Of a DNA stretch of 64,000 nt, positions 1 to 59,750 are shown piece by piece. The notes beneath the pieces are model-generated. The model was not told where the DNA came from. It saw nothing but the letters and a program-made list of their open reading frames with translations, and made no database searches. Each line of letters begins with the position of its first letter. The first letter of the stretch is position 1. A program made the translations under genes and the position numbers. The DNA is from an uncultured Pelagibacteraceae bacterium. Its GTDB lineage: Bacteria > Pseudomonadota > Alphaproteobacteria > Pelagibacterales > Pelagibacteraceae. The stretch lies in the NCBI GenBank assembly GCA_902634935.1, contig CACPMF010000007.1, positions 1 through 64,000 of the forward strand, given 5' to 3'.

Positions 1-1
1 G

Positions 2-6594: not shown

Positions 6595-6607
6595 AGGAGG
6601 TATATAG

Positions 6608-6829: not shown

Positions 6830-6836
6830 AACTTTA

Positions 6837-6870: not shown

Positions 6871-6875
6871 AAAGA

Positions 6876-7040
6876 ATGGAAAATCCTGAGAATAACAATC
6901 AACAAGAAAATAAAACTCCAAGTAAGATGGCAAGGTTAGCGTGGCCTAAAGCCAAATATGGCGCAATCATCGCTGTTATTATTATTGTAGTAGTAAACTT
7001 ATTATATTACAAAGACGCTTTATTAAATCTGTTAAAGTAA
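6876..7040 (+). CDS. Small 54-aa membrane protein between the amt terminator and mgsA
   Basis: ATG 6876 opens a 54-codon frame ending TAA 7038-7040. The product begins with a polar Asn/Gln/Glu-rich head (MENPENNNQQENKTPSKM), then KYGAIIAVIIIVVVNLLYY, a clear transmembrane helix at about residues 28-45. The pattern (polar head, one helix, short tail) is typical of real small membrane proteins. It fills most of the otherwise empty 225-bp gap. It starts only 6 bp after the terminator T-run, without a clear Shine-Dalgarno, so read-through or a weak start are open questions. No family recognised. Confidence 0.55.
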   Translation: MENPENNNQQENKTPSKMARLAWPKAKYGAIIAVIIIVVVNLLYYKDALLNLLK

Positions 7041-7054
7041 AATCACTTAAATTT

Positions 7055-7933: not shown

Positions 7934-7935
7934 TT

Positions 7936-9936: not shown

Positions 9937-9966
9937 TTAAGAATTTGAATTTTAATAGTTTTTAAT

Positions 9967-38758: not shown

Positions 38759-39882
38759 TTTTGTTTTAGGTATTTTAATCGTCCAATAATTTCATCTCTA
38801 TCCATATAATAACCTTGAAGATGTCTATGTCCTGAATTTGGATCAAATTCAGTTCTTCCATGAAGCAATCTTCTATTATTAAATGAAAAAATATCACCTG
38901 GTTCTAACCTAAAATTAATTTGGAATTTAGGATCGTGCAATAAATTACCAAATCTGTGATGAGCTTTATAAACAGAATCCATTTGGTCTGGATGACAATC
39001 TAAAGCGTCTAAAGTTGCAATACTATATCTGATATCATTATAATCTCCATCTTTAGTAAGAGATATTGCAGTACCATGAACACTTCTAATTGCTTCTTGG
39101 GTATAATCTTTGTCTCTAAATTTTAATGGTGTGTTAACTAAAATATCAAATACATCTTTCTCGTTATTTCTTAAATAATCTGCAACTGCAAAAGCATCTA
39201 CAGCAGATGAGTCTCCGCCTTTAGCAGAATTAACCAAACAATGTAAAAATTGGTAACCTGGTGGATTTTCAAACCAAGGTAAATCCATATGATTTCTTAG
39301 AGCATGCGCTGTATAAGCTGAATTATTAGGTTTTGGAATATTGATAACTTCAAACGGTGTTTTAAAAAAAGTTTCTCTAGTATGACTAATTCGATTTAAA
39401 ACTTTCAAACCTGAATTTTTTTCTACAGGTGCATTTTTAACTATTGCAATTCCAGTGTAATGCAAAAGTTCTAGCCATTTTATTAATCCAGCTTCTGAAT
39501 TAATTATTTCATCATGCTCTATTTGAATTGTTTCTAAATTTTTTTCTAATGAACTATCCCAAAGTTTGTACGGTGAGATATATTTTTTTTTATTTTTAAT
39601 TGTATAACAATTTTCTCTAAGCCATTTTGGATCATAGTAACTAGTATGATCACCCTCGCTCCATTCGATTTTAAGTTTTCCATCTGAGTTTACATTATAA
39701 TTTTTTGGATTAATATTTTGTGATACTTTAAGAATGTTAAACATTCTATGGTTTGAGTCTTTATCGTGTGCAGTTGGACAATTGTCTCTTAACCATAAAT
39801 AATTAAATTTACTCTCCTCTCCATCGCTCCAAATAACTTTTAAATAAGTTGAATTTTTTTCTAATTTAGAAATTGACTGCAT
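38755..39882 (-). CDS. Gamma-butyrobetaine dioxygenase-like 2OG-Fe(II) oxygenase
   Basis: A 375-aa protein: an N-terminal DUF971-type domain (1-95, LWLRDNC at 29-35) and a TauD-fold domain with iron ligands H198-x-D200 (RNHMDLPW) and H341 (RLLHGRTEF). The family hydroxylates gamma-butyrobetaine to L-carnitine using O2 and 2-oxoglutarate. The Cys cluster that binds Zn in the eukaryotic enzyme is mostly missing here (NCPTAHDKD). The TmpA enzyme of trimethyl-aminoethylphosphonate degradation is a near relative and a real alternative, given the HD-domain oxygenase at 48250. Carnitine-degrading genes at 44-47 kb favour the betaine reading. Confidence 0.75.
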   Translation of the reverse strand: MQSISKLEKNSTYLKVIWSDGEESKFNYLWLRDNCPTAHDKDSNHRMFNILKVSQNINPKNYNVNSDGKLKIEWSEGDHTSYYDPKWLRENCYTIKNKKKYISPYKLWDSSLEKNLETIQIEHDEIINSEAGLIKWLELLHYTGIAIVKNAPVEKNSGLKVLNRISHTRETFFKTPFEVINIPKPNNSAYTAHALRNHMDLPWFENPPGYQFLHCLVNSAKGGDSSAVDAFAVADYLRNNEKDVFDILVNTPLKFRDKDYTQEAIRSVHGTAISLTKDGDYNDIRYSIATLDALDCHPDQMDSVYKAHHRFGNLLHDPKFQINFRLEPGDIFSFNNRRLLHGRTEFDPNSGHRHLQGYYMDRDEIIGRLKYLKQN

Positions 39883-40061
39883 AGCTGAATTTTTAACTAA
39901 ACTTATAATGTTTTCAATTCAATTAATAGTTGAAATTTGACTTAGGAATTTATTAACAAGATTTTGGAAAAAATTAATTAATAATTGTGTTTAAATATCT
40001 ACCTACAATTTAAAGAAACTTTACAAAGGAGATCTCAAGCTGTTAAAAATATCTTTTAATA

Positions 40062-41087
40062 ATGTCAAAAATAGAAATTAATAACGTTTATAAAATATTT
40101 GGACCAAAACCAAATCAGGTCTTAGAAATGGTTAAAGGTGGTTCAGGAAAAGATGAAATTCTAGAAAAAACAGGACATACAGTTGGATTAGATAATGTTT
40201 CATTAAAAATTGAAGAGGGTGAAACCTTTGTTTGTATGGGTTTATCAGGTTCGGGAAAATCAACTCTTATTAGACATTTAAATAGATTAATCGATCCAAC
40301 CGATGGTGAAATATTAGTCGAAGGCACAAATGTTATGAGCCTAAATAAAGAAAAATTAATTGAATTTAGAAGACACAAAATGAGTATGGTGTTTCAAAGA
40401 TTTGGTTTGTTCCCACATAAAACTGTTTTACAAAATGTTGGTTATGGACTTGAAATGCAGGGTATTGATCCTGAAAAAAGAAATTCTGTTGCAATGGAAA
40501 AAATAGAGGCTGTAGGATTAAGTGGATTTGAAAACCAATATCCAAATCAATTGTCAGGTGGTATGCAACAACGAGTTGGTTTAGCACGAGCTTTAGCAAC
40601 TGATACAGACATAATGTTAATGGATGAAGCATTTTCTGCATTAGATCCTTTAATTAGAAGTGATATGCAAAAACAATTATTAGATCTTCAAGCTCAATTA
40701 AAAAAAACAATAGTTTTTATTACTCACGATTTAGACGAGTCTTTAAGATTAGGAGATCATATCGGTATTTTAAATGCTGGAAAACTTGTTCAAGTAGGAA
40801 CTCCTGTCGAAATTGTGATGAACCCAGCTGATGATTATGTTGAAGCATTTGTTAAAGATGTAAATAGAGCAAAAGTTCTTAAAGCAAAAATAATCATGAA
40901 AAGCGCCAATGAAGTAAATGGAATTGATAAAAATAATCTTATTAAAGTTGGTGAAGATCAATTTATTGAGGAGTTTTTACCTCAAGTAGTTTGTACCAAT
41001 GCAAATTGTGAAGTAGTAGATAAACAAGGAAATATTAAAGGATATATAACAAATAAAGAATTGCAAAAATCTTTAACTAGATCATAA
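40062..41087 (+). CDS. proV: Glycine betaine/proline/choline ABC transporter ATPase (ProV/OpuAA-like), orphan
   Basis: A 341-aa ATPase with the ProV-type N-terminal insert (GPKPNQVLEMVKGGSGKDEI), Walker A GLSGSGKST at 60-68, QRFGLFPHKTV, signature LSGGMQQRVGLARAL, DEAFSALDP and THDLDESL. The C-terminal regulatory (CBS-like) part is short. It would power uptake of a quaternary amine. No permease or binding-protein gene lies beside it. The only Shine-Dalgarno-like AAAGGAG (40025-40031) is about 30 nt before the ATG and no upstream in-frame start exists, so initiation may be unusual. Confidence 0.85.
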   Translation: MSKIEINNVYKIFGPKPNQVLEMVKGGSGKDEILEKTGHTVGLDNVSLKIEEGETFVCMGLSGSGKSTLIRHLNRLIDPTDGEILVEGTNVMSLNKEKLIEFRRHKMSMVFQRFGLFPHKTVLQNVGYGLEMQGIDPEKRNSVAMEKIEAVGLSGFENQYPNQLSGGMQQRVGLARALATDTDIMLMDEAFSALDPLIRSDMQKQLLDLQAQLKKTIVFITHDLDESLRLGDHIGILNAGKLVQVGTPVEIVMNPADDYVEAFVKDVNRAKVLKAKIIMKSANEVNGIDKNNLIKVGEDQFIEEFLPQVVCTNANCEVVDKQGNIKGYITNKELQKSLTRS

Positions 41088-41096
41088 TATTCTTGT

Positions 41097-41948
41097 ATGT
41101 CTAAAAATTTAAAAGACATTATTGATTTAAATAAGTACCCTATCCACGATTTAAATTCTCCAAAAATTAAAAGTATTATAGAAAAATGTAAAAGTGATTT
41201 AGAGCAAGATAGTTGCTCTACTCTGCCTGACTTTATTTTGCCTAACTCATTAAAAATAATGAATAATGAATTAGAGCAACAGTTAAATGAAGTTTATATG
41301 TCCAAAGAAAGTATCAATGCTTATCTTTATGCAAAAGATGATCCATCTTTACCAAATGATCATCCAAAAAGAACTTTTATGAATAGATATAATGGATATT
41401 TAAATTCTGACTGTTTTTCAGAAAATTCTGAGATGAAATTTTTATATGAAACTGAAGAATTATTAAATTTTGTATCTGCTTGTTTAGGCGTTTCACCTAT
41501 TTATAGATGGGCAGATCCTTTAGCATGTCATGCTTATAATGTGATGAAGCCCGAAGGTATTTTGCCTTGGCATTTTGATAGTTGTGAATTTACTTTAAGT
41601 TTAATGATACAAAAATCAGAGAAAGGCGGCATCTTCGAATACTGTCCAAATATAAGAGAACCTGGAAATGAAAATTTTGAAGAGGTTAAAAAAGTATTAA
41701 ATGGAGATCGGTCAAGAGTGAAACAGCTTAAGCTTGAGCCTGGAGATTTACAAATTTTTAAAGGCAGATTTACATTGCATAGAGTGACCAAAATTGAGGG
41801 AAATTCATCGAGATATATGTGTATCCCTGCTTATGTTTTGGACCCCCACAGAGTAAATACACCTGAACATTCAAAAGCAATTTATGGAAAAGCACTTCCA
41901 ATACATTATGAGAGAAATACAGCAAGATCAGATGGTCTTACAGATTAA
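41097..41948 (+). CDS. 2OG-Fe(II)-type oxygenase, phytanoyl-CoA dioxygenase-like
   Basis: A 283-aa protein. A double-stranded beta-helix core is visible, with H159-F-D161 (LPWHFDSCEF) and H228 (FKGRFTLHRV) as iron ligands and R239 (SSRYMCIP) as a likely 2-oxoglutarate ligand; LEPGDLQIFKG is typical of the fold. An N-terminal helical part (1-90) is not recognised. Substrate unknown. The stop overlaps the next gene's ATG by one base, so the product acts with the FrhB-like flavoprotein and SDR. Confidence 0.7.
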   Translation: MSKNLKDIIDLNKYPIHDLNSPKIKSIIEKCKSDLEQDSCSTLPDFILPNSLKIMNNELEQQLNEVYMSKESINAYLYAKDDPSLPNDHPKRTFMNRYNGYLNSDCFSENSEMKFLYETEELLNFVSACLGVSPIYRWADPLACHAYNVMKPEGILPWHFDSCEFTLSLMIQKSEKGGIFEYCPNIREPGNENFEEVKKVLNGDRSRVKQLKLEPGDLQIFKGRFTLHRVTKIEGNSSRYMCIPAYVLDPHRVNTPEHSKAIYGKALPIHYERNTARSDGLTD

Positions 41949-43168
41949 TGTCTCAAATAAATAGCCTATCAGATATTACAAACAATGGTTTGTGCATTGG
42001 CTGTGGAATATGTCAAAGCCTTGTTGGAACAGATAAAATTTCTATCTCCATGTCTGAAAAAGGAAGACTAGAGCCAGAAGCAATCAAACCCTTATCTAAT
42101 TTAGAATTTGAAAAAATAAAAAAAACATGTCCAGGAGTTATTGTTGAAGGGTTGCCACAAACAGAAGTAAATAATAATTCAAAGCATGATTTAATCTGGG
42201 GATATTACAATTCTTTATTTTATGCATGGTCTACTGATAAAGATATCCGGTTTCAAAGCTCCACTGGAGGTTTATTAAATGGTTTATCTTTATATTTACT
42301 AGAGACAAATAAGGTTGATTTTGTTCTTCACACCGCAGGAGATCCTGATAACCCAATGAGAAGTCTTCCTAAGTTTAGTTATACTAAAAAAGATTTATTA
42401 AATTGTGAAAGTCGATCGAGATATGGGCCTGCTTCACCTTTAAGTAGGTTTAATGAAGCTTTAGATACAAATAAGAAATTTGTATTTGTTGGAAAGCCAT
42501 GTGATATCTCTGCTATAAGACAACTCTCTAAAATAGATGAAAGAGTAAATAAACAATGTCTGTATTTGTTAACACTCGTGTGTGGTGGATCAACCGAATT
42601 TACTAAATCTCAAGATTTTATAAACAGCTTTAACGTTAAAGAAGAGGAATTAGATATATTTAGATATAGAGGATATGGAAATCCTGGGCTTATGTATATT
42701 AAAACAAAAAATGGTAGAGAGCATGATAAAGAATATAATTCCTTTTGGGGTGATGAAAGCAATTGGAGAGTTCATTTTAGATGTAAAATCTGTCCAGACG
42801 CAATAGGAGAATGTTCAGATTTAGCAGCTCTTGATACATGGAGCGGTGGATCACCAGCTGGAGAAGATGAGGGCTTTAATGCTGTAATTGCTAGAACAGA
42901 AAAAGGAATAAATTTATTAAATGATGCAATTAAAGCTGGCTATATTGAAAAAGGTGATGATTTAAACATTGATGATATTAATGATTTTCAGCCTCACCAG
43001 CTAAATAAGAAGAAAGCTGTTTATGCAAGACATCTTGGATTAAAGAAAAATAACTTACCAACTCCCCAAACTCAAAGATTAAGAATAAAAGAAATATATG
43101 ATAATAATGATAAAAAATTTAACAGTATTGAAGAAGAAGGCATAACTAGCAGAGTTGAGAAAATTTAA
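41948..43168 (+). CDS. FrhB/F420-dehydrogenase beta-subunit family flavo-iron-sulfur protein
   Basis: A 406-aa protein. C16, C19 and C22 (GLCIGCGICQSLVG) and the later KTCPG Cys form a ferredoxin-like Fe-S site. The FrhB core includes VFVGKPCDISAIRQL and, near the C-terminus, C279-x2-C282-x6-C289 (CKICPDAIGECSDL) followed by DTWSGG. Family members move electrons between flavin/F420-type carriers and substrates; related proteins modify polysaccharides or reduce organic acids. This organism type is not known to make F420, so a flavin or ferredoxin partner is likely. Coupled on both sides to an oxygenase and an SDR. Confidence 0.75.
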   Translation: MSQINSLSDITNNGLCIGCGICQSLVGTDKISISMSEKGRLEPEAIKPLSNLEFEKIKKTCPGVIVEGLPQTEVNNNSKHDLIWGYYNSLFYAWSTDKDIRFQSSTGGLLNGLSLYLLETNKVDFVLHTAGDPDNPMRSLPKFSYTKKDLLNCESRSRYGPASPLSRFNEALDTNKKFVFVGKPCDISAIRQLSKIDERVNKQCLYLLTLVCGGSTEFTKSQDFINSFNVKEEELDIFRYRGYGNPGLMYIKTKNGREHDKEYNSFWGDESNWRVHFRCKICPDAIGECSDLAALDTWSGGSPAGEDEGFNAVIARTEKGINLLNDAIKAGYIEKGDDLNIDDINDFQPHQLNKKKAVYARHLGLKKNNLPTPQTQRLRIKEIYDNNDKKFNSIEEEGITSRVEKI

Positions 43169-43951
43169 ATGTCATCGTTAAAAAATAAAAAAGTAATTAT
43201 TTCAGCAGGTGCCTCAGGAATAGGATGGGCAACTGCAAAAGTATGCTTAGAAAAAGGTGCTATAGTTTTTATTTGTGACATTGATAAAAAATATTTATCA
43301 AAAGCAAAAAAACATAAACAAAATAATAAAAAACTTTTTGTGTATGAGTGTGATGCCTCAAATGAAAAAGAAGTAAAAGATTTATTTTTAAAAATAAATA
43401 AAAAAACAAAAAAGATTGATTGTTTAATTAATAATGTAGGCATTGCTGGACCTACAGGTACAATTGAAAAACTATCATTAAATGATTGGGAAAGAACTTT
43501 AAAAGTAAATGTGATAAGTCATTTTCATTTCACTAAGCTTTCAATCCCAATGCTTAAGAAAAATAAAGGTGGCTCCATAATAAATTTATCTTCTGGGGCT
43601 GGAATCATGGGATTTCCGCTAAGATCACCTTACGCAGCAAGTAAGTGGGCTATTGTAGGAATAACTAAAACATTAGCTATGGAACTTGGTAAGTTTAAAA
43701 TAAGAGTGAATGCTATCTGCCCAGGTACAATTAAGGGTGATCGAATGGTGAGAGTTATTAGAGATAAGTCTAAATTTTTAAAAATTTCAAAAAAGAAAAT
43801 CGAAAAAGAATTCATCTCTATGGCATCCATGAATTGCTGGATTTACGAGGAAGATATTGGAAAAACTTGTAGTTTTCTAATGTCTGATGATGCTGCAAGG
43901 TTATCTGGTCAAATTATTGCAGTAGATGGAAACGCAATAAGGCTAGATTAA
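43169..43951 (+). CDS. Short-chain dehydrogenase/reductase
   Basis: A 260-aa classical SDR: cofactor motif SAGASGIG near the N-terminus, NNVG, catalytic Ser in INLSSGAG, YAASK (Tyr/Lys) and CPGTIKGDR. It oxidises an alcohol or reduces a ketone with NAD(P). Starts on the base after the FrhB-like stop, completing a three-gene cassette. Substrate unknown. Confidence 0.88.
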   Translation: MSSLKNKKVIISAGASGIGWATAKVCLEKGAIVFICDIDKKYLSKAKKHKQNNKKLFVYECDASNEKEVKDLFLKINKKTKKIDCLINNVGIAGPTGTIEKLSLNDWERTLKVNVISHFHFTKLSIPMLKKNKGGSIINLSSGAGIMGFPLRSPYAASKWAIVGITKTLAMELGKFKIRVNAICPGTIKGDRMVRVIRDKSKFLKISKKKIEKEFISMASMNCWIYEEDIGKTCSFLMSDDAARLSGQIIAVDGNAIRLD

Positions 43952-44355
43952 GTTTTTAATTCTTTTTCACTTATTTCCATAAATGGAAAATGAGAATCTT
44001 CATAAAAAATATTATATGCAGACTTTAGTATACTAACATCATCTAGCATACCTGCGTATAAATAGAATTTATCCCACTTAGATACATAAGTTAAAATAGG
44101 TGCTGCACATTTTTTACAAAAAAACTTTTTAATTTTATTACCACTTCCACCACTGTGTTCATAAGTTCCAAGTTTGCTTTTATCAATATCAACAGCGTTT
44201 TCTCTTAGTTGTATAATTGAGATAATTCCTCCAATTTTTTTTCTACAGTCTATACAATGACAATTAAAAACTCTTGGTTTTTCGTCTAATAAAACATTGA
44301 ATTTGTGTTCACCACAAAAGCATCCAGCAGTTTTACTGATCATTTTTTTTTCCAT
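43948..44355 (-). CDS. GFA/CENP-V family zinc protein
   Basis: A 135-aa protein with the full cysteine set of the GFA family: C12-x-C14 (GCFCGEH), C32-x-C34-x2-C37 (NCHCIDCRK) and C80-x2-C83 (FFCKKCAAPI). Named after a glutathione-dependent formaldehyde-activating enzyme, though most members are uncharacterised. Demethylation of betaines releases formaldehyde, so co-location with carnitine genes is suggestive. It follows the carnitine dehydrogenase start-to-stop with no gap and overlaps the convergent SDR gene by 4 bp. Confidence 0.8.
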   Translation of the reverse strand: MEKKMISKTAGCFCGEHKFNVLLDEKPRVFNCHCIDCRKKIGGIISIIQLRENAVDIDKSKLGTYEHSGGSGNKIKKFFCKKCAAPILTYVSKWDKFYLYAGMLDDVSILKSAYNIFYEDSHFPFMEISEKELKT

Positions 44356-45297
44356 TTATCTTAATTTTTTTTCGTATTTTTTTCTCATCATTTGTAGCTC
44401 AACTAAATATTCGTCTCTAATATTTGAAATCATTGAAACAGATTTTCCCTTTGATTGATTTTTTGTTCCACTAATTATTCTTAAAGATAAATTTTTAGTA
44501 AGTTTAGGAGCTTTTAGTTTGGTCCATGGAAGTTTAAGAGCTGGGCCAAATTGTTCGAGCATATGTTTCATGCCAGCCTTTCCTCCTGCTAAGTGAAAAG
44601 TTAAAAAGGTACCCATTAAAGACCATCTTAATCCTGGTCCATCTTCAATAGCTCTATCTAAATCTTCAGTGGTAGCATATCCTTCATTAATTATATGAAG
44701 CCCCTCTCTCCACAAAGCTTCCTGCAACCTATCAGATAAATACCCTGGTAATTCTTTTTTAACCATTATTGGGTTCATTGAGATTGATTTATAAAATTTT
44801 TTAGCTTGATTGAGATATTTAGTACTCGTTTTTTTTCCAGGTACAATTTCAACTGCAGGCAAAAGATAAACGGGATTAAAGGGATGTCCTATAAGTGATC
44901 TTTGAGGATTTTTACATTTTGAATAAATTCTAGTAGGCAAAAGTCCAGATGAACTTGAAGATATAATCGCATTTGGTTTTGCATAATTTCCAATTGTGCT
45001 CATTAATTTTGTTTTAAGAGCATAATTTTCTGTTGCACATTCTTGAATAAATTCAGCATCCTTTAAAGTTTTCTCTAAGGACGTAAAATAATAAAAATTT
45101 TTTAAATTGAGTTTATTTTTTTTAAATAGTTTTTTTACAAATGGCCAAGTTCTCTTAATTTCCTTTATTAAACTATTTTTAAGTTTTAGATCTTTATCAA
45201 ATGCATAAACAATTTTGTTATGAGCAAGGCATCTAATGATCCAGCCCGTTCCAATTACTCCAGTTCCTATAACTGCAACCTTTTTAATTGAGGACAT
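44356..45297 (-). CDS. lcdH: L-carnitine dehydrogenase
   Basis: A 313-aa 3-hydroxyacyl-CoA-dehydrogenase-fold protein. NAD motif GTGVIGTGW at 11-19, catalytic H137 (LIGHPFNPVYLLPAVEIV) and E149. The segments RLQEALWREGLHIINEGYATTEDLD and GPGLRWSLMGTFLTFHLAGG are characteristic of L-carnitine dehydrogenase, giving 3-dehydrocarnitine and NADH. The fused thioesterase domain present in many homologues is absent; a separate hotdog thioesterase is at 46947. It overlaps the BKACE gene by one base, so both are co-translated. Confidence 0.8.
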   Translation of the reverse strand: MSSIKKVAVIGTGVIGTGWIIRCLAHNKIVYAFDKDLKLKNSLIKEIKRTWPFVKKLFKKNKLNLKNFYYFTSLEKTLKDAEFIQECATENYALKTKLMSTIGNYAKPNAIISSSSSGLLPTRIYSKCKNPQRSLIGHPFNPVYLLPAVEIVPGKKTSTKYLNQAKKFYKSISMNPIMVKKELPGYLSDRLQEALWREGLHIINEGYATTEDLDRAIEDGPGLRWSLMGTFLTFHLAGGKAGMKHMLEQFGPALKLPWTKLKAPKLTKNLSLRIISGTKNQSKGKSVSMISNIRDEYLVELQMMRKKYEKKLR

Positions 45298-46184
45298 TAC
45301 TTGTGTTTAACAAGTTTTAACTTTTCTCTTGTTTCAGCTGGCGTCATGATTGAGGCACCTAAATCTTCAACGATACGAACTGCTTTTTCAACCAACTGAG
45401 AATTTGTTGCTAATTTTCCTTTTGATAAATATAAATTATCTTCCAATCCAACTCTTGGATTTCCGCCCATAACAACTGTTTGAGCTACATAAGGCATTTC
45501 ATTTCTAGAGATTGCAAAACCAGACCAAACTGCCTCTTTAGGCATTGTGTCTTTCATTGCTTGCATTGCTAAAGGTGTAGCAGGTGCTCCCCAAGGAATT
45601 CCTAAACACATTTGAAACATTGGAGGATCACTTAATAATCCCTCTTTATATAATTGAGATCCAAACCACATATTTCCCAAATCAAATGCTTCTATTTCTG
45701 GTTTTACTTTTATTTCTTGTAATTTTTTTGCAGCTTTTCTTAAATCATTTGGAGTGTTTACTGTTATTACAGATCCATCACCAAAATTTAATGTTCCAGC
45801 ATCAAGTGTGCAAATTTCTGGTAAAAACTGTTCTGCATTTGCAATTCGTTCCATAACGTTTGCCATATCTGTCATGGGTCCAAAGTCTAAAGGATTTTCA
45901 CCTTGTCCAATATCTAAATCACCACCCATTCCTGTTGTTAAATTTAAAATGACATCTGTTTCACTTGATCTAATTCTATCAACAACTTCTTTATATAATT
46001 CTAATCTTCGACTTGGGGTACCGTCTTCTTCCCTTACATGAATATGTGCTATTGCAGCTCCAGCTTTTGCAGCTTCAATTGCTGATTTAGCAATTTGTTC
46101 AGGAGTTTTAGGTAAATCTGGATGTTTACTAGCTGTATCACCTGAACCAGTCACAGCACAGGATACAAAAACTTTATTGTTCAT
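45297..46184 (-). CDS. Beta-keto acid cleavage enzyme (BKACE/DUF849), probable dehydrocarnitine cleavage
   Basis: A 295-aa TIM-barrel zinc enzyme with metal-binding H47-x-H49 (IAHIHVREEDG), NLTTGMGGD, CTLDAGTLNFGD and EAFDLGNMWF motifs of the 3-keto-5-aminohexanoate cleavage family. These enzymes combine a beta-keto acid with acetyl-CoA to give acetoacetate and a new CoA ester. Co-translated with carnitine dehydrogenase, the likely substrate is 3-dehydrocarnitine, giving acetoacetate and betainyl-CoA. It is the first gene of the minus-strand unit, divergent from the aldolase by 35 bp. Confidence 0.82.
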   Translation of the reverse strand: MNNKVFVSCAVTGSGDTASKHPDLPKTPEQIAKSAIEAAKAGAAIAHIHVREEDGTPSRRLELYKEVVDRIRSSETDVILNLTTGMGGDLDIGQGENPLDFGPMTDMANVMERIANAEQFLPEICTLDAGTLNFGDGSVITVNTPNDLRKAAKKLQEIKVKPEIEAFDLGNMWFGSQLYKEGLLSDPPMFQMCLGIPWGAPATPLAMQAMKDTMPKEAVWSGFAISRNEMPYVAQTVVMGGNPRVGLEDNLYLSKGKLATNSQLVEKAVRIVEDLGASIMTPAETREKLKLVKHK

Positions 46185-46219
46185 AATTTATAATTCACTT
46201 ATAGTTTAAAAAAGCAAAA

Positions 46220-46945
46220 ATGGAAATAACTGAGTTACAAAAAGATTTAGCTGCAACATTTAGGTGGACAGCAAGACTAAATATGCATGAAGCGGTTGCA
46301 AATCACTTTAGTGCTTGTGTTCCTGGATCCTCAGATTTTTACGTAAATAAAGCTGGTATTCATTTCAGTCAAATTAAAGCTAGTGATTTAATTTTAATAA
46401 CAAAAGAAAATATTGAAGAACTTAGAAATAAACCTGAAGTAGTAGATTCAACAGCATTAAATATACATGGAACTATTCATGAAAAAGCTCCACACGCAAA
46501 ATGTATTTTTCATCTTCACTCAAAATATGCAACTGTTCTCTCGACCTTAAAAGATCCAACGCTTAAACCAATAGATCAAAATACTATGTTTTTTTATAAC
46601 AGAGTTGCTGTTTACAATGATTATGGAGGGTTGGGATTTGAGGAAGAGTCTATCAAAATGGCAAATGCTCTTGGAAATAAACAGCATATGATTTTAGCAA
46701 ATCATGGCATCATAACAACTGGAGAGACAGTTGCTGAAGGTTTTAATTCTTTATACTATTTTGAAAAAGCCGCGGAAACATACATTACAGCTCTATCAAC
46801 AAATAAAAATTTAAATATTGTTAGTCATGAGGTTGCAGAAAAAACTTGTGAGGAAGCTGCAAACTATCCTGTTGATACGGCAAAGCAATTCTTATCGCAA
46901 ATTAGACTAATCTTAGATAAAGAAGAGCCAGAATATGTAAATTAA
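46220..46945 (+). CDS. Class II aldolase/adducin-family protein
   Basis: A 241-aa protein with the family zinc site: HLHSKYAT (about 96-103) and MILANHGIITTG (about 155-166). Members cleave or epimerise phosphorylated and free sugars or act as decarboxylases. It begins the + strand unit 46220-50366 and is followed after 1 bp by the thioesterase. No sugar gene is nearby, so the substrate may be a small hydroxy-keto compound of the betaine pathway; unproven. Confidence 0.82.
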   Translation: MEITELQKDLAATFRWTARLNMHEAVANHFSACVPGSSDFYVNKAGIHFSQIKASDLILITKENIEELRNKPEVVDSTALNIHGTIHEKAPHAKCIFHLHSKYATVLSTLKDPTLKPIDQNTMFFYNRVAVYNDYGGLGFEEESIKMANALGNKQHMILANHGIITTGETVAEGFNSLYYFEKAAETYITALSTNKNLNIVSHEVAEKTCEEAANYPVDTAKQFLSQIRLILDKEEPEYVN

Positions 46946-46946
46946 T

Positions 46947-47414
46947 ATGAGTATATTTCTTAAAAGCCAAAAAATTATTAAAGATTGGATTGATTATAAT
47001 GGCCATATGAATGTTGCCTACTATGTATTGATTTTTGATGAAGCATCTGAGGGCATGCTTAATAAATTTAAAATGGGTGCAATTGATGCAAAAGCAAATA
47101 ATAGAAGTACAATGGTCGTTGAGTCGAGAATTACATACAATAACGAGGTAAAAGAAAATGAGGAAGTAGACGTTTATTGTAATTTCTTCGATCATGACAA
47201 GAAAAGGCTTATTGTTAGATATGAAATGTACGAGAAAGAGACCAAAAAATTAGCGGCTACTTTAGAATCTATGTCACTTTATATAGACCTTGAAAAAAGA
47301 AAAGTTACAGAATTTGAGCAAGAAAAATTGGATATTATGGATAAATTTATAAACGAAAATAAGGAAAAATTTAATTCAGAAAATTTAGTATTATCTGGTA
47401 AACTGAAAAAATAG
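46947..47414 (+). CDS. Hotdog-fold acyl-CoA thioesterase, candidate betainyl-CoA thioesterase
   Basis: A 155-aa 4-hydroxybenzoyl-CoA-thioesterase-like protein: DYNGHMNVAYYVLIFDEASEG (active-site Asp/Asn-His region at about 14-35) and VVESRITYNNEVKENEEVDV. In carnitine catabolism betainyl-CoA is hydrolysed by this type, often fused to carnitine dehydrogenase; here the dehydrogenase lacks that domain, so this free protein is the natural candidate. It sits between the aldolase and TauD-like genes with 1-2 bp gaps. Confidence 0.75.
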   Translation: MSIFLKSQKIIKDWIDYNGHMNVAYYVLIFDEASEGMLNKFKMGAIDAKANNRSTMVVESRITYNNEVKENEEVDVYCNFFDHDKKRLIVRYEMYEKETKKLAATLESMSLYIDLEKRKVTEFEQEKLDIMDKFINENKEKFNSENLVLSGKLKK

Positions 47415-52424: not shown

Positions 52425-53594
52425 ATGAAGTTTGGTTATTTTTGTAACACAACCAATTGGACACACAAACCATATCATCAATTACTAGATGAAACCAAAG
52501 AGATCACTGAATATTGTGATAAACATAAATGGAATTCAATATGGTTTACAGAACATCATTTTAATCATGAGGGAATGGAGTCATGCACTAACCCTTTAAT
52601 GTTAGGAGCAGATGCAGCAGCAAGAACAAAAAATATCAGAATAGGACAAGCTGCAAACGTAATTACATTCCATAACCCAATTAGATTAGCAGAAGATATT
52701 GCAACGCTTGATCAACTTTCCAAAGGAAGAGTAGAAGTAGGTGTGGCCAGAGGTGTTTATGGACGAGAAGCTATAAATTTAAATAAAGAGGCTGATTTAA
52801 AAGATCAAGCAAAAAATTTTAGATTATTTGCTGAGACACTAGAAATTTTAAAAAAAGCTTGGTCCGAAAAATTTTTTAATCACGATGGAGAATTTTATAC
52901 TTATCCCTCTCCTAACTATGTATGGCAACATGATATGAGTCCGCCAAGTGAAGAATTTATGAATATGGAAGACAGCACCATGAAAAAAATAAGTGTTGTA
53001 CCAAAGCCTTATCAGAACCCACACCCGCCTATTCATCAAGTTGTAGATGGAATAAGATCTATTGAGTGGGCAGCAGAAAATAATATTAATGTAATTATGT
53101 GGATTCCTACAGTAAAGGCCCTGAAAATAAGATTTGAGGCATACAAAAATAAAAGATCAGAAGTTACCAAAAAAAATGTTCCTTTAGGAGAAGGAGTTAC
53201 TCTTGTTCGAGACATGTTTGTTGCTGATACAATGGAAGAGGCAAAAGAAATGGCAGGAGAACATATGGTTAATTACATGAAATGGGTTTGTCATTGGAGA
53301 GGTCTTGGTAATCATATGGATCCAGGTGAAGAGCTTCCAGAAACTAAAGGTAAATTAGATTTATTAAATTACGAATTCCTTCATCAAAGAAATATGCTTT
53401 TTGGTACGCCAGAGTATGTAATTGATAAAATTCATGAATTAAAATCAGAATTAAATTTACAAAATCTTCAGGTTTGGTCTAATTTTCCAGGTGTAAAACA
53501 TAAAGATTGTATGAAAAGTATAAAGTTATTCACTGAAAAAGTAATGCCACATTTTAAAGATGATCTAGACACTGAAGTCAAAAAAGTTTCGTGA
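52425..53594 (+). CDS. Luciferase-like (LLM class) flavin-dependent monooxygenase
   Basis: A 389-aa TIM-barrel protein from ATG 52425. MKFGYFCNTTNW start, SIWFTEHHF (about 43-51), IRIGQAANVITFHNPIRLAEDIATLDQLSKGRVEVGVARGV region and the C-terminal GTPEYVIDKIHEL are family features. These enzymes use reduced flavin and O2 to oxygenate or split C-S, C-N or C-C bonds. A histidine- and tryptophan-rich middle insert (VNYMKWVCHWRGLG) is unusual. First gene of the run to 59750; it overlaps the ThDP enzyme by 4 bp (GTGA). Substrate unknown. Confidence 0.83.
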   Translation: MKFGYFCNTTNWTHKPYHQLLDETKEITEYCDKHKWNSIWFTEHHFNHEGMESCTNPLMLGADAAARTKNIRIGQAANVITFHNPIRLAEDIATLDQLSKGRVEVGVARGVYGREAINLNKEADLKDQAKNFRLFAETLEILKKAWSEKFFNHDGEFYTYPSPNYVWQHDMSPPSEEFMNMEDSTMKKISVVPKPYQNPHPPIHQVVDGIRSIEWAAENNINVIMWIPTVKALKIRFEAYKNKRSEVTKKNVPLGEGVTLVRDMFVADTMEEAKEMAGEHMVNYMKWVCHWRGLGNHMDPGEELPETKGKLDLLNYEFLHQRNMLFGTPEYVIDKIHELKSELNLQNLQVWSNFPGVKHKDCMKSIKLFTEKVMPHFKDDLDTEVKKVS

Positions 53595-55294
53595 AGCTAA
53601 AGTCAAGAAAGCTTACAGGTGGTCAAGCCGCTGTAAAGTCTTTAAGAAAAGAACAAGTTAAACATGTTTTTGGTTTAATTGGATCAGCTACCATGGAAAT
53701 GTTTGATGCTCTTTATCATGAAAAACAAATTAAATTTATTGATGTAAGAGATGAAAGAACAGGGACTCATATGGCTGATGGATATGCAAGAGCGTCTAAT
53801 CAACCAGGTGTGATTATTGCAGGGCAAAATGGTCCTGGTGCAACAAATTTAGTAACAGGACTTGCTCAAGCAAAAGCTGCTTTTTCACCAGTCATATCCT
53901 TGGCTGGACTATATTCTACAAAAGATAAAATGGAGGATGCATTTCAAGGACTTGATCAGCAATCCTTGTTTGAACCTGTGACTAAAAAAACAATTACATT
54001 AAAGAACAGTAAAAATATTCCAAATGCGATATCAGATGGATTTAATGTTGCGATGTCACCAAGAAGAGGCCCGGTTTGTATAAATTTACCAAGAAACCTA
54101 CTAGCTGAAAAAAATAATTATAAAATAAATGAAAAAATAAAATCATTTAAAAATAAAAATAATACTCCTTCGAAACCTGTTTCAATTAAAAGAGCTGCAA
54201 AATTAATTAGTAATTCATCTAAAGGAATAATTATTGTTGGAGGTGGAATTAAATATACTTCAGGATTTAAAACAATAATTAAACTTGCAGAATATTTAAA
54301 TATTCCAATTGTTACAGCTGCTGGTCATGGCGATGCAATTCCTTTTAATCATAAATTAAATGCAGGACAAATGGGTCCAAGAGGAAATCCTGTTGCAACA
54401 AAATTGACTAAAGAGGCAGATATTATTTTAGCAATTGGAACAAGATTGGGGTTCAATTCAACTTTTCTATCTTATGAGTATATCAATAAAAAAGCAAAAA
54501 TAATTCAAATTGAATTAGAAAAAAAGATGCTTGGTAAATACTTTCCAATTCAAATTGGTATAAATGCAGATGCAGAAACGTCAGCCAATCAAATATTAAA
54601 TGAATTAAAAAAACAGAAAATTAAATTAGAGGTAAAAAACTGGACTAAACAATTTTTAAAAGATCGATCGGATTTTTTATTAAATAGAGATAAAATTAAA
54701 TATAAGAATTACCCGATACAGCCATTCGGTTTATTTAAAGAGCTTAGAAAAGTATTACCAAAAAACTCAGCTGTAACATTAGACGCTGGTACTTTATGTT
54801 TACAGGCAACCGATGCATTAAAATATTACAATCCTCCAAGTTTATTTACTCCATTAGATTTTGGCCTTGTTGGTTTTTCTTTTGCATGCGGCTTAGGTGT
54901 AAAATTAGCTAAACCAAAAAAAACTGTAGTTAGTCTTATGGGAGATGGTGGTTTTGGTATGACACTTTCTGAATTAAGCACTGCTGTTGAACACGGTATA
55001 AATACAATTACTATTGTAATGAATAATAAAAGTTGGGGAGCTGAAAAAGCTTATCAAAAGGACTTTTTTGGGAAAAGATATTTAGGAGCTGATATTTCTA
55101 GTCCACCTTTTGATAAAGTTGCAGAGTTATATGGTGCAAAAGGTTATAAAGTTAAAAAATTATCTGAAATAAATGATTCACTTAAAAGTGCTCTTAAAGT
55201 AAACAAACCAGTGGTAATTGAAATAGATGTTGATCCAAAAGCATTGTACAGTTTTAGAAAAGATAGTTTTAAAAATAAATTAAATGCCAATTAA
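53591..55294 (+). CDS. ThDP-dependent enzyme, acetolactate synthase / sulfoacetaldehyde acetyltransferase-like
   Basis: A 567-aa protein starting with GTG (overlapping the previous TGA). The catalytic Glu is in VRDERTGTHMADGYAR, and the ThDP/Mg site is SLMGDGGFGMTLSE ... IVMNNKSWGAEK. The NNxxWGAEKxxQxDF(F/Y) region resembles Xsc (sulfoacetaldehyde acetyltransferase) more than anabolic acetolactate synthase. No small regulatory subunit gene is near. It may act on the aldehyde or keto acid made by the upstream monooxygenase. Xsc-like and acetolactate-synthase-like readings remain open. Confidence 0.8.
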   Translation: MKLKSRKLTGGQAAVKSLRKEQVKHVFGLIGSATMEMFDALYHEKQIKFIDVRDERTGTHMADGYARASNQPGVIIAGQNGPGATNLVTGLAQAKAAFSPVISLAGLYSTKDKMEDAFQGLDQQSLFEPVTKKTITLKNSKNIPNAISDGFNVAMSPRRGPVCINLPRNLLAEKNNYKINEKIKSFKNKNNTPSKPVSIKRAAKLISNSSKGIIIVGGGIKYTSGFKTIIKLAEYLNIPIVTAAGHGDAIPFNHKLNAGQMGPRGNPVATKLTKEADIILAIGTRLGFNSTFLSYEYINKKAKIIQIELEKKMLGKYFPIQIGINADAETSANQILNELKKQKIKLEVKNWTKQFLKDRSDFLLNRDKIKYKNYPIQPFGLFKELRKVLPKNSAVTLDAGTLCLQATDALKYYNPPSLFTPLDFGLVGFSFACGLGVKLAKPKKTVVSLMGDGGFGMTLSELSTAVEHGINTITIVMNNKSWGAEKAYQKDFFGKRYLGADISSPPFDKVAELYGAKGYKVKKLSEINDSLKSALKVNKPVVIEIDVDPKALYSFRKDSFKNKLNAN

Positions 55295-55595
55295 ATTAAC
55301 AATGTTAGTTGCGTTAGTTGTTTCGTCGATAGTGTATTGGTCATTATCTAATATATGTAGATTTAATTATTCAATTGATAAAAAAACTAAAATTTTAAAT
55401 GAGATTGCAAAAGAAGCTGATATTGATTTTGGTTCTGCAAAAGTTTATTACTTCAAAGAATTAAACTGCCTTCCGGCAGATACTGAATTTGAATTTCAAA
55501 GGTTAATGAGTAATTTAAGTCATGTTAGTATCTTAGTTATGCAGCAATTAACTACAGATATAAGGGGAATTAGGGTTGAGGAATTAAAAAAATAA
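55284..55595 (+). CDS. Small membrane-anchored protein of unknown function
   Basis: A 103-aa protein with one N-terminal transmembrane or signal segment (about 5-24, LTMLVALVVSSIVYWSLSNI), then a mixed soluble domain with two cysteines. No family recognised. It overlaps the ThDP gene by 11 bp and ends 1 bp before the DUF1185 gene, so it is certainly inside the operon. It may tether the pathway at the membrane; that is inference. Confidence 0.6.
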   Translation: MPIKLTMLVALVVSSIVYWSLSNICRFNYSIDKKTKILNEIAKEADIDFGSAKVYYFKELNCLPADTEFEFQRLMSNLSHVSILVMQQLTTDIRGIRVEELKK

Positions 55596-55596
55596 A

Positions 55597-56181
55597 ATGG
55601 AACTTAAACTTAGAAAATTTGCCAAATTTTTAGATAAAACATTTATCGAAGGAGGTAAAGAAGCTAAAGAACCGGTTCTTTTAGTTTCAGTTGCTGCTGT
55701 AATACAAAATCCTTGGGCGGGAAAAGGTTTTGTTGAAGATATTAAGCCAGAAATTCTTGATCTAGCACCAAAGCTTGGAGATATTTTAGTTCCAGAACTT
55801 ATTAAAGAGATAGGCTCAGGAGATAAAATTCAAGCATATGGTAAAGCTGCAATAGTTGGTCTTAATGGAGAAATAGAACATGCATCTGCTTTTATACATA
55901 CCTTAAGATTTGGAAATAAGTTTAGAGATGCAGTCGGTGGAACTGCTTATTTAAGTTTCACAAATACAAGGGGACCCGCTGGATCAAAGATTTCTATTCC
56001 AATGATGCACAAAACAGATCCAGGATTAAGGCCATTTTATTTAACACATGAATTTACAATTAATGACGCTCCAAATGAAGATGAGATAGTTGTTGCAATA
56101 GGTGGTGCTCCATTTGGAAGAGCACATGCAAGAACTGGAGACAGATATCAAGATATGAAAGAAATGGGCATTGAACAATAA
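55597..56181 (+). CDS. DUF1185 ('amino acid synthesis' family) protein
   Basis: A 194-aa protein matching the DUF1185/AA_synth family: VSVAAVIQNPWAGKGFVEDI near residue 30-49, GKAAIVGLNGEIEHASAFIH, and the C-terminal GGAPFGRAHARTGDRYQDM. The family was named for presumed amino acid synthesis but has no established reaction. Repeated occurrence beside hydrolases and flavin monooxygenases, as here, suggests a catabolic lyase or isomerase. It is 3 bp upstream of the alpha/beta hydrolase. Confidence 0.75.
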   Translation: MELKLRKFAKFLDKTFIEGGKEAKEPVLLVSVAAVIQNPWAGKGFVEDIKPEILDLAPKLGDILVPELIKEIGSGDKIQAYGKAAIVGLNGEIEHASAFIHTLRFGNKFRDAVGGTAYLSFTNTRGPAGSKISIPMMHKTDPGLRPFYLTHEFTINDAPNEDEIVVAIGGAPFGRAHARTGDRYQDMKEMGIEQ

Positions 56182-56184
56182 ATA

Positions 56185-56958
56185 ATGATCAATGCAAAAG
56201 ATTCCTACAATACTTTTTATTCTTTAAATCAAAAATCTGGAATTCCTTTGGTATTTATCCATGGTGTAGGTTTGAATAATACAATTTGGGAACCTCAAGT
56301 AAACGCATTTGAGAATAGTGTATTAACATATGATATTCTAGGACATGGAAAAACTCCTCTCAGTAAAGATGAAATTTCATTTGATATTTTTTCAGACCAA
56401 TTATTAAATTTAATTAATGAACTTAATATTGAAAAAATCCACTTAATTGGTTTCTCAATTGGATCATTAATAGCAAGAAATTTTGCTTGCAAATTTAATG
56501 AAAGACTTCAGTCTTTAACATTGCTCTGTTCAATATTTAAAAGAAGTACAGAACAACAAAAATTAGTAAATGATAGGTTTGAACTTGCCAAAAAAAGTAA
56601 GAAATTATCTAAACAAGCTTTGAAGAGATGGTTTACAGATGATTACTTAAAAAAAAATCCTGATACATATCAAAAAATAAGTAACTTATTGGACACAAAT
56701 AACATTTATAATTTTTTAAAAGTATATTCGCTTTTTGTAAATCATAAAGATCAAGAGGATTTTTCAAAAATAAAAGTAAAAACCTTAATAATGACTGGAG
56801 AGGGTGATGCAGGTTCTACACCTCAAATGACTGAGGAATTAAGTAAAAAAATTGAGAATTCTTACTTTAAAATAATTCCTGAAGGAAAACATCTATGTAG
56901 TATTGAATGTTCTGATAAGGTAAATTTAGAAATTAAAAAACATATAGAAAATGCCTGA
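56185..56958 (+). CDS. Alpha/beta-fold hydrolase
   Basis: A 257-aa hydrolase. The oxyanion strand is PLVFIHGVGLNNTIWEPQ, the nucleophile elbow GFSIGS (Ser at about 93), the acid is probably in TGEGDAGSTP, and the final His is in EGKHLCSIE. Similar to PcaD-type enol-lactonases and esterases. It overlaps the aldehyde dehydrogenase by 8 bp. It likely opens a lactone, ester or thioester intermediate of the same pathway. Confidence 0.85.
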   Translation: MINAKDSYNTFYSLNQKSGIPLVFIHGVGLNNTIWEPQVNAFENSVLTYDILGHGKTPLSKDEISFDIFSDQLLNLINELNIEKIHLIGFSIGSLIARNFACKFNERLQSLTLLCSIFKRSTEQQKLVNDRFELAKKSKKLSKQALKRWFTDDYLKKNPDTYQKISNLLDTNNIYNFLKVYSLFVNHKDQEDFSKIKVKTLIMTGEGDAGSTPQMTEELSKKIENSYFKIIPEGKHLCSIECSDKVNLEIKKHIENA

Positions 56959-58432
56959 GTTAAAAAAATATAAAATGTTTATAAATGGTGAGTGGGTTAA
57001 CTCAGATACTGAAAAGATTTTTGAAACACTTAATCCTGAAAATAATAAACCTTGGGCTGCAGTTCCAGAGGCAAGTGCAAGCGATGTTGACAGAGCTGTC
57101 AAAGCTGCACAAAATGCATTTGAAGGTGAGTGGCCAAAATTATTACCAAAAGAAAGAGCAAGATATCTGAGGATGATAGGAGATAAACTTAGAGAAAATG
57201 CTGAACATTTAGGAAAAATAGAAACAATTGATACTGGAAAACTTTATAGAGAAACATATAAACAGGCTAATTACATAGCTGAATATTATGATTATTATGC
57301 AGGTCTTGCTGATAAGGTTGAAGGAACCGTTCTTCCAATAGACAAACCAAACATTCAAGCAATAACGACAAGAATACCAATCGGTGTAATTGCTGCAATT
57401 GTTCCATGGAACTCGCAAATGTTTTTAACAGCTACAAAACTTGCACCGGCATTAGCAATGGGTAACACTGTTGTTATTAAATGCTCTGAGTTAGCGCCTG
57501 CAACAATGTTTGAATTTGCAAAGTTAATTCAAGAAACTGGTATTCCAAAAGGAGTTGTAAATGTTATTTCTGGTTTTGGAGAACCTTGTGGTAAAGCTCT
57601 TACATCACATAATCTAGTTGAAAAAATTGCATTCACTGGTGGGCCAGAAACAGCACGTCATATCATTAGAAATTCTGCAGAAAATTTATCTGAAGTAAGT
57701 TTAGAACTTGGAGGAAAAAGTCCTGTTGCAGTATTTAATGATGCAAACCAAGAAAATGCTATTAATGGAATTACTGCAGGAATTTTTGGTGCCAGTGGAC
57801 AAAGCTGTATTGCTGGATCTAGGCTTTATTTGCAGGAAGGAATTTATGATGAATTTTTAGACAAACTATCAAAAAGAGCTGAGAAAATAAGAATTGGAGC
57901 TCCAATGGATCCTGAAACCGAGATGGGTCCGATTAGTAACTATAAACAATTAGAGGTCATTGAAAAAAATATCAAACTAACTCTTGAACAAGGTGGAAGA
58001 TTAAAATGTGGTGGACAAAGACATTCATTTTCTAATGAAGGTTATTATTTTCCAGCAACAATTATAGAATGTGATAACCATAATTTACCAGTTGCTGAGA
58101 ATGAATTGTTTGGACCTGTTTTATCAGTGATGAAATTTAAAACTGAAGAAGAAGTTGTTTCAAAAATGAATGATAACCAGTATGGATTATCATCGGGTGT
58201 ATACACGTCCGACCTTGCAAGAGGCATGAGGGTTTCAAAAGCAATTAGAGCTGGAATTACTTTTGTTAATACTTATAGATTAATTTCGCCAACTGCTCCA
58301 TTTGGTGGCATAAAGGATAGTGGATATGGAAAAGAGGCTGGACTAGAATCTATTAAAGATTACACTCGAGTAAAGACTACATGGTTTTATACTTCTGACG
58401 AACCTACCCTGGATCCATTTTCAATTAGATAA
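56951..58432 (+). CDS. Aldehyde dehydrogenase
   Basis: A 493-aa ALDH with N154 (VPWNSQ), E252 (LELGGKS) and catalytic C286 (SGQSCIAGS). The usual IKPSE and GSTxxG motifs read IKCSE and TGGPETAR, small departures from the norm in the cofactor region. It oxidises an aldehyde, probably the end product of the operon. Distinct from the ALDH at 22486. It is the last enzyme gene before the 85-bp gap and the livK-like gene. Confidence 0.88.
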   Translation: MPELKKYKMFINGEWVNSDTEKIFETLNPENNKPWAAVPEASASDVDRAVKAAQNAFEGEWPKLLPKERARYLRMIGDKLRENAEHLGKIETIDTGKLYRETYKQANYIAEYYDYYAGLADKVEGTVLPIDKPNIQAITTRIPIGVIAAIVPWNSQMFLTATKLAPALAMGNTVVIKCSELAPATMFEFAKLIQETGIPKGVVNVISGFGEPCGKALTSHNLVEKIAFTGGPETARHIIRNSAENLSEVSLELGGKSPVAVFNDANQENAINGITAGIFGASGQSCIAGSRLYLQEGIYDEFLDKLSKRAEKIRIGAPMDPETEMGPISNYKQLEVIEKNIKLTLEQGGRLKCGGQRHSFSNEGYYFPATIIECDNHNLPVAENELFGPVLSVMKFKTEEEVVSKMNDNQYGLSSGVYTSDLARGMRVSKAIRAGITFVNTYRLISPTAPFGGIKDSGYGKEAGLESIKDYTRVKTTWFYTSDEPTLDPFSIR

Positions 58433-58463
58433 AACTTAATTTAATTAAAATAATTATTGAAAA

Positions 58464-58490
58464 TTGACGACAATAATATTTAATTAATAT
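58464..58490 (+). promoter_or_regulatory. Candidate promoter of the livK-like gene
   Basis: TTGACG at 58464-58469 and TAATAT at 58485-58490 are separated by 15 bp (16-18 bp for overlapping alternatives) in the 85-bp gap before the binding-protein start. It may give the binding protein its own, higher expression. Confidence 0.35.
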
Positions 58491-58517
58491 TTAAAAATAA
58501 ACTATTAGAGGTAACAA

Positions 58518-59750
58518 ATGGCAGATGCTAAAAATAAAAATTATGGAGTATTAATAATTGGGGCAATAATTGTAATTGCTGCAATATTTTATTTTACTCA
58601 GCAGAAAACTTCAATAATTGGAAAAAAACAAGATATAAAAGTTGGAATTATTCTTGGGTTTACTGGTCCAATAGAATCTCTTACTCCTGCAATGGCTGCT
58701 TCAGCAGAACTTGCTTTTAAAGAAGCTTCAGACTCTGGCTCACTTTTGGGAGGTTCAATTATTAACATAGAGAGAGCAGACTCAACATGTGTAGATTCTG
58801 CGGCTGCAACAACTGCGGCAGAAGGATTAATTTCTGGAGGTGTAAACGCTATAATGGGAGCTGATTGTTCGGGCGTTACTGGAGCAATAGCAACTAATGC
58901 TGCTGTACCCAATGGAGTTGTGATGATATCGCCTTCCGCAACTTCTCCAGGATTGACAGATTTAAATGACAATGGTTTCTTTTTTAGAACAGCGCCATCA
59001 GATGCAAGAGGAGGCCAAGTATTAGCTGATATAACAAAAGACAGGGGTGTTAGAAGCATAGCAATAACTTATACTAATAATGATTACGGAAAAGGTCTTG
59101 CAGATGTTTATGAAGCTGCTGTTAAAGCTCATGGAATAAATGTTACGGTAGTAACATCTCATGAGGAAGGTAAAGCAGACTATGGTGCTGAAGTAGCAAC
59201 TCTTGCTGCAGCTGGTGGAGATGCGGTTGCAGTCTTAGGTTATCTTGATCAGGGTGGTGGTATGATCATCCAGGGTTCAATAGATTCAGGAGCATTTGAT
59301 GTTTTTGTTTTATCCGATGGAATGATAGGAGACTCCTTAACAGATAGGTTTGGGAGTGAGCTTAACAAGTCATTTGGTTCTTTACCTGGTTCTACTGGAA
59401 AAGGTGCAGGATTATTTGCAGAAGTAGCTAAAGCAGGTGGTATTGATTCATCTGGACCATATACAGGAGAATCATACGATGCAGCTGCATTAATTACTTT
59501 AGCCATGCAAGCAGGTGGATCTGCAGATAGATCTTCAATTCAAAGTAATGTTATGAGTGTAGCAAACTCTCCGGGTACAAAAATCTATCCTGGTGAATTA
59601 AAAAAAGCACTTGACTTATTAGCTGAAGGAAAAAAAGTTAATTATGAAGGTGCTACTGGGGTTGAATTTACGGATGTAGGAGAAGCTTTTGGATCTTTTT
59701 TAGAAAAAGAGATAAATAACGGTAAGTTTGAAACAAAGAAACAGAGATAA
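58518..59750 (+). CDS. livK: Branched-chain amino acid-type ABC substrate-binding protein (LivK-like)
   Basis: A 410-aa type-1 periplasmic binding protein (IKVGIILGFTGPIESLTPAMAASAELAFKEA; MGADCSGVTGAIATNAAVPNGVVMISPSAT; FFRTAPSDARGGQVLADI). The N-terminus is MADAKNKNYGVLIIGAIIVI...FTQQK: a short charged head and a helix at about 9-26 with neither lipobox Cys nor an obvious cleavage site, so it may stay anchored. It follows the catabolic operon and is closed by a terminator. The likely partner permeases and ATPases are convergent on the other strand. Substrate unknown. Confidence 0.85.
   Translation: MADAKNKNYGVLIIGAIIVIAAIFYFTQQKTSIIGKKQDIKVGIILGFTGPIESLTPAMAASAELAFKEASDSGSLLGGSIINIERADSTCVDSAAATTAAEGLISGGVNAIMGADCSGVTGAIATNAAVPNGVVMISPSATSPGLTDLNDNGFFFRTAPSDARGGQVLADITKDRGVRSIAITYTNNDYGKGLADVYEAAVKAHGINVTVVTSHEEGKADYGAEVATLAAAGGDAVAVLGYLDQGGGMIIQGSIDSGAFDVFVLSDGMIGDSLTDRFGSELNKSFGSLPGSTGKGAGLFAEVAKAGGIDSSGPYTGESYDAAALITLAMQAGGSADRSSIQSNVMSVANSPGTKIYPGELKKALDLLAEGKKVNYEGATGVEFTDVGEAFGSFLEKEINNGKFETKKQR

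Follow-up and report, generated by a model that had tools for sequence, protein, structure and literature searches.

The 64,000-nucleotide stretch analysed here (hereafter, the window) comes from contig CACPMF010000007.1 of an uncultured Pelagibacteraceae bacterium (GenBank assembly GCA_902634935.1), and carries a putative catabolic operon at positions 52425-58432 of the + strand. The genome is of the SAR11 (Pelagibacter-type) group (1.06 Mb, 35 contigs, 79% complete), and its closest named relatives are Pelagibacteraceae single-cell genomes, with identities of the DUF1185 protein up to 96%. The genes encode a luciferase-like flavin monooxygenase (LLM), a thiamine diphosphate (ThDP)-dependent enzyme, a DUF1185 protein, an alpha/beta hydrolase (ABH) and an aldehyde dehydrogenase (ALDH), and are followed by a livK-like gene (Table 1). 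The original prediction, made from the sequence alone, proposed a tightly packed catabolic operon for the import, oxygenation, cleavage and oxidation of a sulfonate or other small organic acid. The packing was found as proposed: the five enzyme genes and one orphan open reading frame (ORF) all abut or overlap (by 4 nt between the LLM and ThDP genes, and by 8 nt between the hydrolase and ALDH genes), and livK starts after a gap of 85 bp from the end of the ALDH gene. A logic of oxygenation, hydrolysis and oxidation was also supported, and the Pfam families were confirmed; the matches of all six proteins, livK included, were far above the cut-offs.

Table 1. Genes of the operon and the adjoining livK-like gene (positions in the window)
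Feature	Position	Strand	Evidence or remark
LLM (bacterial-luciferase-like) flavin monooxygenase	52425-53594	+	PF00296, 1.4e-44
ThDP-dependent enzyme, sister family of Xsc	53591-55294	+	three TPP domains (Pfam)
103-aa ORF, hydrophobic N-terminus	55284-55595	+	overlaps ThDP gene
DUF1185 / AA_synth protein, tgn subfamily, TgnF-like accessory protein	55597-56181	+	PF06684, 218 bits
Alpha/beta hydrolase	56185-56958	+	PF00561, 83 bits
Aldehyde dehydrogenase, TgnC-like	56951-58432	+	PF00171, 533 bits
livK-like solute-binding protein	58518-59750	+	PF13458

Conservation of the operon in SAR11

The neighbourhoods were collected with the DUF1185 gene as the anchor (80 named SAR11 loci and 29 further loci). 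The order LLM-(ThDP)-DUF1185-hydrolase-ALDH-livK was nearly constant in the SAR11 loci as far as the contigs extend, beyond what chance would give. The DUF1185 family (PF06684) was present in 99 of the 297 genomes sampled from the order. The cultured Pelagibacter strain HTCC9565 is one of the carriers of the operon. When 30 SAR11 genomes (15 with and 15 without DUF1185) were compared, the LLM was found in all 15 of the former and in none of the latter (0/15). The gene set as first described needs correction in three respects: the livK gene is present with or without the operon, the ThDP gene is carried by a minority of the SAR11 copies, and the 103-aa ORF occurs at three close loci. Apart from the window, the last was seen only at two loci very similar to it (L034 and L036), the remaining loci with the ThDP gene lack it, and it had no match to any Pfam or NCBIfam family; it is an orphan insertion between the ThDP and DUF1185 genes and probably lies outside the pathway.

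The livK gene was present in 29 of the 30 genomes, including 14 of the 15 genomes without the operon, where the identity reached 89%, and its tree did not track the operon variant. It is thus a core SAR11 gene adjoining the operon and not an operon-specific one. Its occurrence in operon-free genomes speaks against the proposed role as a dedicated importer, and the gene is silent on the substrate. In the alignment of the livK-like protein, the Ser and Thr of what we take to be the carboxylate site were kept, and the acidic residue at the presumed amine site was Asp (as in 3ip5), where LBP has Glu.

Relationship to the trigonelline operon and the proposed substrate

The original prediction knew of no described pathway with this gene set. 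This statement has to be corrected for all but the ThDP gene, since the others match the tgn operon for the degradation of trigonelline. On an Acinetobacter plasmid, the order is DUF1185-ABH-tgnA-tgnB-tgnC, in which, according to the NCBI gene names, tgnA and tgnB encode the reductase and oxygenase (LLM) components of trigonelline monooxygenase, and tgnC encodes an ALDH (methylformamido-methylene-hydroxybutyrolactone dehydrogenase). The same five-gene order was found on pSymA of Sinorhizobium meliloti, flanked by nod/noe genes on one side and an ABC transporter on the other (LLM, ALDH and DUF1185 each 72% identical to those of Acinetobacter), and on plasmids of Leisingera, Marivivens and Pantoea. 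S. meliloti lacking pSymA did not grow on trigonelline (PMC4207669), and the genes for the catabolism of trigonelline, stachydrine and carnitine were assigned to pSym by mapping (Goldmann et al. 1991, as cited in PMC12489286). The DUF1185 homologue TgnF reportedly stimulates TgnE (PMC7913881), and the fold of DUF1185 is chorismate-mutase-like (PMC2954203).

The identities of the window proteins to those of Acinetobacter were 51% (ALDH), 54% (DUF1185), 27% (LLM) and 27% (hydrolase). The 51% of the ALDH to TgnC compares with 31% to a rhizobial succinate-semialdehyde dehydrogenase, and the DUF1185 protein shared 54-59% identity with copies from trigonelline-type operons and 31-40% with members of the other subfamily. 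Among 40 loci from other Alphaproteobacteria, 13 had the tgn-like DUF1185 and 27 the other subfamily; a hydrolase was found in 10 of the 13 tgn-like loci and the full set of LLM, ABH and ALDH in 7, while the full set was found in none (0/27) of the loci of the other subfamily. The hydrolase, which is poorly conserved among all tgn-like operons, has the same fold and position as TgnD; its scores were RutD/PcaD-like, each under its cut-off, and the residues of a Ser-Asp-His triad were seen in the alignment. We propose that it is a putative N-formyl amide hydrolase with a TgnD-like role. As for the DUF1185 proteins of the tgn subfamily, two loci (L207, 1645-7781; L212, 7279-8752) had the gene adjoining amidohydrolase-like genes, the former also with RidA-like genes nearby, and LLM was not found in either; DUF1185 may serve further enamine-forming pathways there.

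From these subfamilies and their linkage, we consider, with a probability of roughly 60%, that the operon is a SAR11 version of the tgn-like route and serves to cleave the ring of a pyridinium betaine. Several points weigh against it. Among solved structures, the window LLM is closest to the alpha chains of bacterial luciferase; it is not orthologous to TgnB and fell in a separate clade of the LLM tree. A flavin reductase gene was not found in the locus, and the PF01613 flavin reductase was found neither in the window genome nor in nine near-complete congeneric genomes, although the LLM that SAR11 genomes carry is of the two-component type. The locus contains a single ALDH, with no second one of the TgnE type (succinate-semialdehyde dehydrogenase), and the tgn pathway requires no ThDP step. 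The low identity and separate clade of the LLM indicate that the operon is not tgn proper; it is tgn-like in logic, with the ALDH and DUF1185 of the TgnC and tgn types, and with orthologues of TgnB, TgnA and TgnE missing from the locus. The closest LLM relative with a known context (53% identity, genome G505) had the order flavin reductase-LLM-DUF1185-ABH-ALDH; at that locus (L132, 10504-15019), the LLM-DUF1185-ABH-ALDH genes are adjoined by those for a Rieske oxygenase, a DAO-type flavoprotein and a flavin reductase. The window LLM is proposed as a putative ring-cleaving oxygenase, the functional counterpart of TgnB.

The proposed reactions follow the chemistry of the tgn pathway. The LLM, with FMNH2 and O2, would open the ring between C5 and C6 to give an N-formyl-N-methyl enamine aldehyde, the FMNH2 being supplied by a reductase not encoded nearby. 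The TgnC-like ALDH would oxidize the aldehyde to the acid, the hydrolase would remove the formyl group as formate, and the TgnF-like DUF1185 protein may assist the breakdown of the enamine or imine to methylamine and a C4-C5 acid.

Since the gene set resembles that with which soil bacteria open trigonelline (N-methylnicotinate), the operon probably serves to digest this compound or its marine isomer homarine (N-methylpicolinate); a non-TgnB oxygenase together with the same partner enzymes would fit an isomeric or closely similar ring, and homarine is the probable substrate, trigonelline the less likely one. Of the metabolites measured in particles from the Pacific, homarine was the most abundant, and trigonelline was far scarcer (PMC8269262); a later correction lowered the homarine concentrations (PMC10134881). 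On steric grounds, the authors of the former study argued that homarine would not be a substrate of TgnA/B (PMC8269262). That trigonelline itself is the substrate, with the LLM exchanged for a non-orthologous one, is not very likely: the ALDH and DUF1185 fit the tgn subfamilies, and trigonelline supported better growth of Ruegeria pomeroyi than homarine did (PMC8269262), but the TgnB-type LLM is absent, the distinct LLM clade fits a different isomer, and the compound is scarce in seawater as mentioned above. A pathway for homarine catabolism is available from Ferrer-Gonzalez et al. (2026, Nat Microbiol 11:1531, as cited in PMC13390433), and the participation of N-methylglutamate dehydrogenase is quoted from it in the citing article (PMC13390433). 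The window operon may turn out to be identical to the published homarine operon. The study of Ferrer-Gonzalez and co-workers reportedly describes an operon whose carriers include SAR11.

The ThDP enzyme and the two forms of the operon

An NNxxWGAEK segment had been pointed out as Xsc-like, and this is real: the WGAEK and GQNGPG motifs of the window enzyme and its relatives are conserved in Xsc proteins. The enzyme scored 396.5 bits with the curated Xsc model (cut-off, 676.4), 409.8 bits with PRK07525 (cut-off, 620) and 393.7 bits with the acetolactate synthase (ALS) model (cut-off, 538), and in the tree it grouped on the Xsc side, away from IlvB (support, 100/99). The ThDP structures BbmA/CsmA were among the best non-ALS matches in the structure search. 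The enzyme is therefore a member of a sister family of Xsc, and an ordinary acetolactate synthase, which would have gone against the prediction, is ruled out by the ALS cut-off and the tree position.

The gene is optional in SAR11, only a minority of the operon copies carrying it. When its presence was mapped on the gene trees of 46 loci, a single change was sufficient on the LLM and hydrolase trees (clade support, 100) and on the DUF1185 tree (support, 83), and five changes were needed on each of the ALDH and livK trees. A single clade of ThDP-bearing loci was rejected for ALDH and livK with the approximately unbiased (AU) test (p = 3.6e-5 and 6e-70, respectively). Since the ThDP gene tracks the former trees and not the latter, it appears that the LLM, ThDP, DUF1185 and hydrolase genes were swapped together, as one block, between the resident ALDH and livK genes.

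Recombination of a contiguous block would by itself yield this pattern, and the ThDP gene could then be a passenger that moved with the LLM-to-hydrolase block and has no role in the pathway. We regard this as unlikely, because orthologues (58-62% identity) recur with LLM, ABH and ALDH genes in three other alphaproteobacterial genomes, which argues against a passenger gene. The contexts were FlavRed-ALDH-LLM-DUF1185-ABH-ThDP with LysR (G875), ALDH-LLM-ABH-ThDP-CMD (G507), and ALDH-LLM-ABH-ThDP followed by a DMGDH-like flavoprotein gene, with an MttB gene nearby (G471); thus, one of the three also has the flavin reductase, DUF1185 and LysR genes. Remoter relatives in Ruegeria adjoin MttB and FAD-dependent oxidoreductase genes. 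At two Ruegeria loci (L144, 354-9674; L145, 353-9662), an MttB-type methyltransferase, a class III aminotransferase, two FAD-dependent oxidoreductases and a related ThDP enzyme are encoded together; this operon resembles an uncharacterized pathway for a trimethylated amine, possibly trimethyltaurine.

In the ring-cleavage pathway proposed above, the ThDP enzyme would take a carbonyl fragment freed after the hydrolase step, and decarboxylation of a 2-oxo acid or formation of an acyl phosphate is a possible reaction. The PTA/PTB family (PF01515) was present in 24 of the 24 SAR11 genomes tested, irrespective of the ThDP gene, and is thus uninformative on a partner for the acyl phosphate outlet. 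We put forward, tentatively and at somewhat less than even odds, that this sister family of Xsc performs an undescribed step in the degradation of pyridinium betaines, and that SAR11 populations have two interchangeable forms of the operon at one chromosomal site, one with this step and one lacking it. If so, strains that are close relatives would use different chemistry on one substrate, or on different substrates. What is new here is the ThDP-bearing form; most of the rest is accounted for by a tgn-like operon for ring cleavage. The form points to a specific orphan enzyme family that is found repeatedly in one kind of genomic context.

Other substrates, genomic context and comparison with known systems

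It is quite improbable that another N-heterocycle (pyrimidine, hydantoin or another N-alkyl ring) is opened in the manner of the Rut pathway (RutA LLM, RutD hydrolase and the small trimeric protein RutC). The hydrolase matched RutD at 69.6 bits, and the LLM, the hydrolase and the small protein with a chorismate-mutase-like fold resemble the Rut proteins role by role; nevertheless, that score is below the RutD cut-off (238.5), RutB, RutC and RutE are absent from the locus, and the ALDH and DUF1185 indicate tgn. A sulfonate, as suggested in the original prediction, is highly improbable as the substrate: for a route in which the LLM oxygenates or desulfonates the sulfonate and the ThDP enzyme acts as Xsc to form acetyl phosphate and sulfite, one may cite the shared motifs, the sister position to Xsc and the R. 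pomeroyi relative beside MttB-type methyltransferase, aminotransferase and oxidoreductase genes (compare the possible trimethyltaurine route), but it is opposed by the scores under both Xsc cut-offs, the LLM score of 29.2 bits with SsuD, the alkanesulfonate monooxygenase (cut-off, 518.2), the absence of an adjoining pta gene, the PF01515 distribution, which is the same regardless of the ThDP gene, and the fact that most SAR11 copies lack the ThDP gene and retain the rest of the operon. Of the substrates on the original list, the N-heterocycles are supported and the sulfonates are not.

Upstream of the operon (38755-47414), the window contains genes of the gamma-butyrobetaine dioxygenase, carnitine dehydrogenase, keto-acid cleavage enzyme and thioesterase types, which are carnitine-pathway-like; the dioxygenase, dehydrogenase and cleavage-enzyme families scored below the curated cut-offs. 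Carnitine-type genes are similarly located upstream of the operon in many SAR11 relatives. At 1-11292, there are two adjacent sets of type III glutamine synthetase-like, class II amidotransferase, GltB C-terminal-like and FMN-domain genes, which flank an ammonium transporter gene. In SAR11, type III glutamine synthetase and GltB-like genes usually serve methylamine, and the two sets are probably duplicated methylamine / N-methylglutamate genes. The carnitine-like and methylamine-type neighbours would be fitting for a betaine context of the operon.

Few bacterial groups of the ocean are as abundant as SAR11, and about one in three of the sampled genomes of its order had DUF1185. Should homarine or trigonelline be what the operon consumes, a specific sink for this large marine stock of organic nitrogen would become testable by gene.

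Compared with known systems, the operon is like the Rut pyrimidine pathway in that an LLM oxygenase, an alpha/beta hydrolase and a small accessory protein would act in turn, and unlike it in having DUF1185 and ALDH instead of RutB, RutC and RutE, with low sequence similarity. The ThDP enzyme has the fold, the two motifs and the sister tree position in common with Xsc; however, it forms a separate clade under the curated cut-offs and lies in an LLM/ABH/ALDH operon without pta, whereas the Xsc loci (L162-L164) have a pta neighbour. With the homarine pathway, the operon would share a marine N-methylpyridine carboxylate as the proposed substrate. Although it differs from the tgn operons in the LLM clade, the added ThDP enzyme, the changed gene order and the lack of TgnA and TgnE, it has, like those of Acinetobacter and S. 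meliloti pSymA, the LLM, the TgnC-like ALDH, the alpha/beta hydrolase and the tgn-subfamily DUF1185 together, and its surroundings also contain betaine genes.

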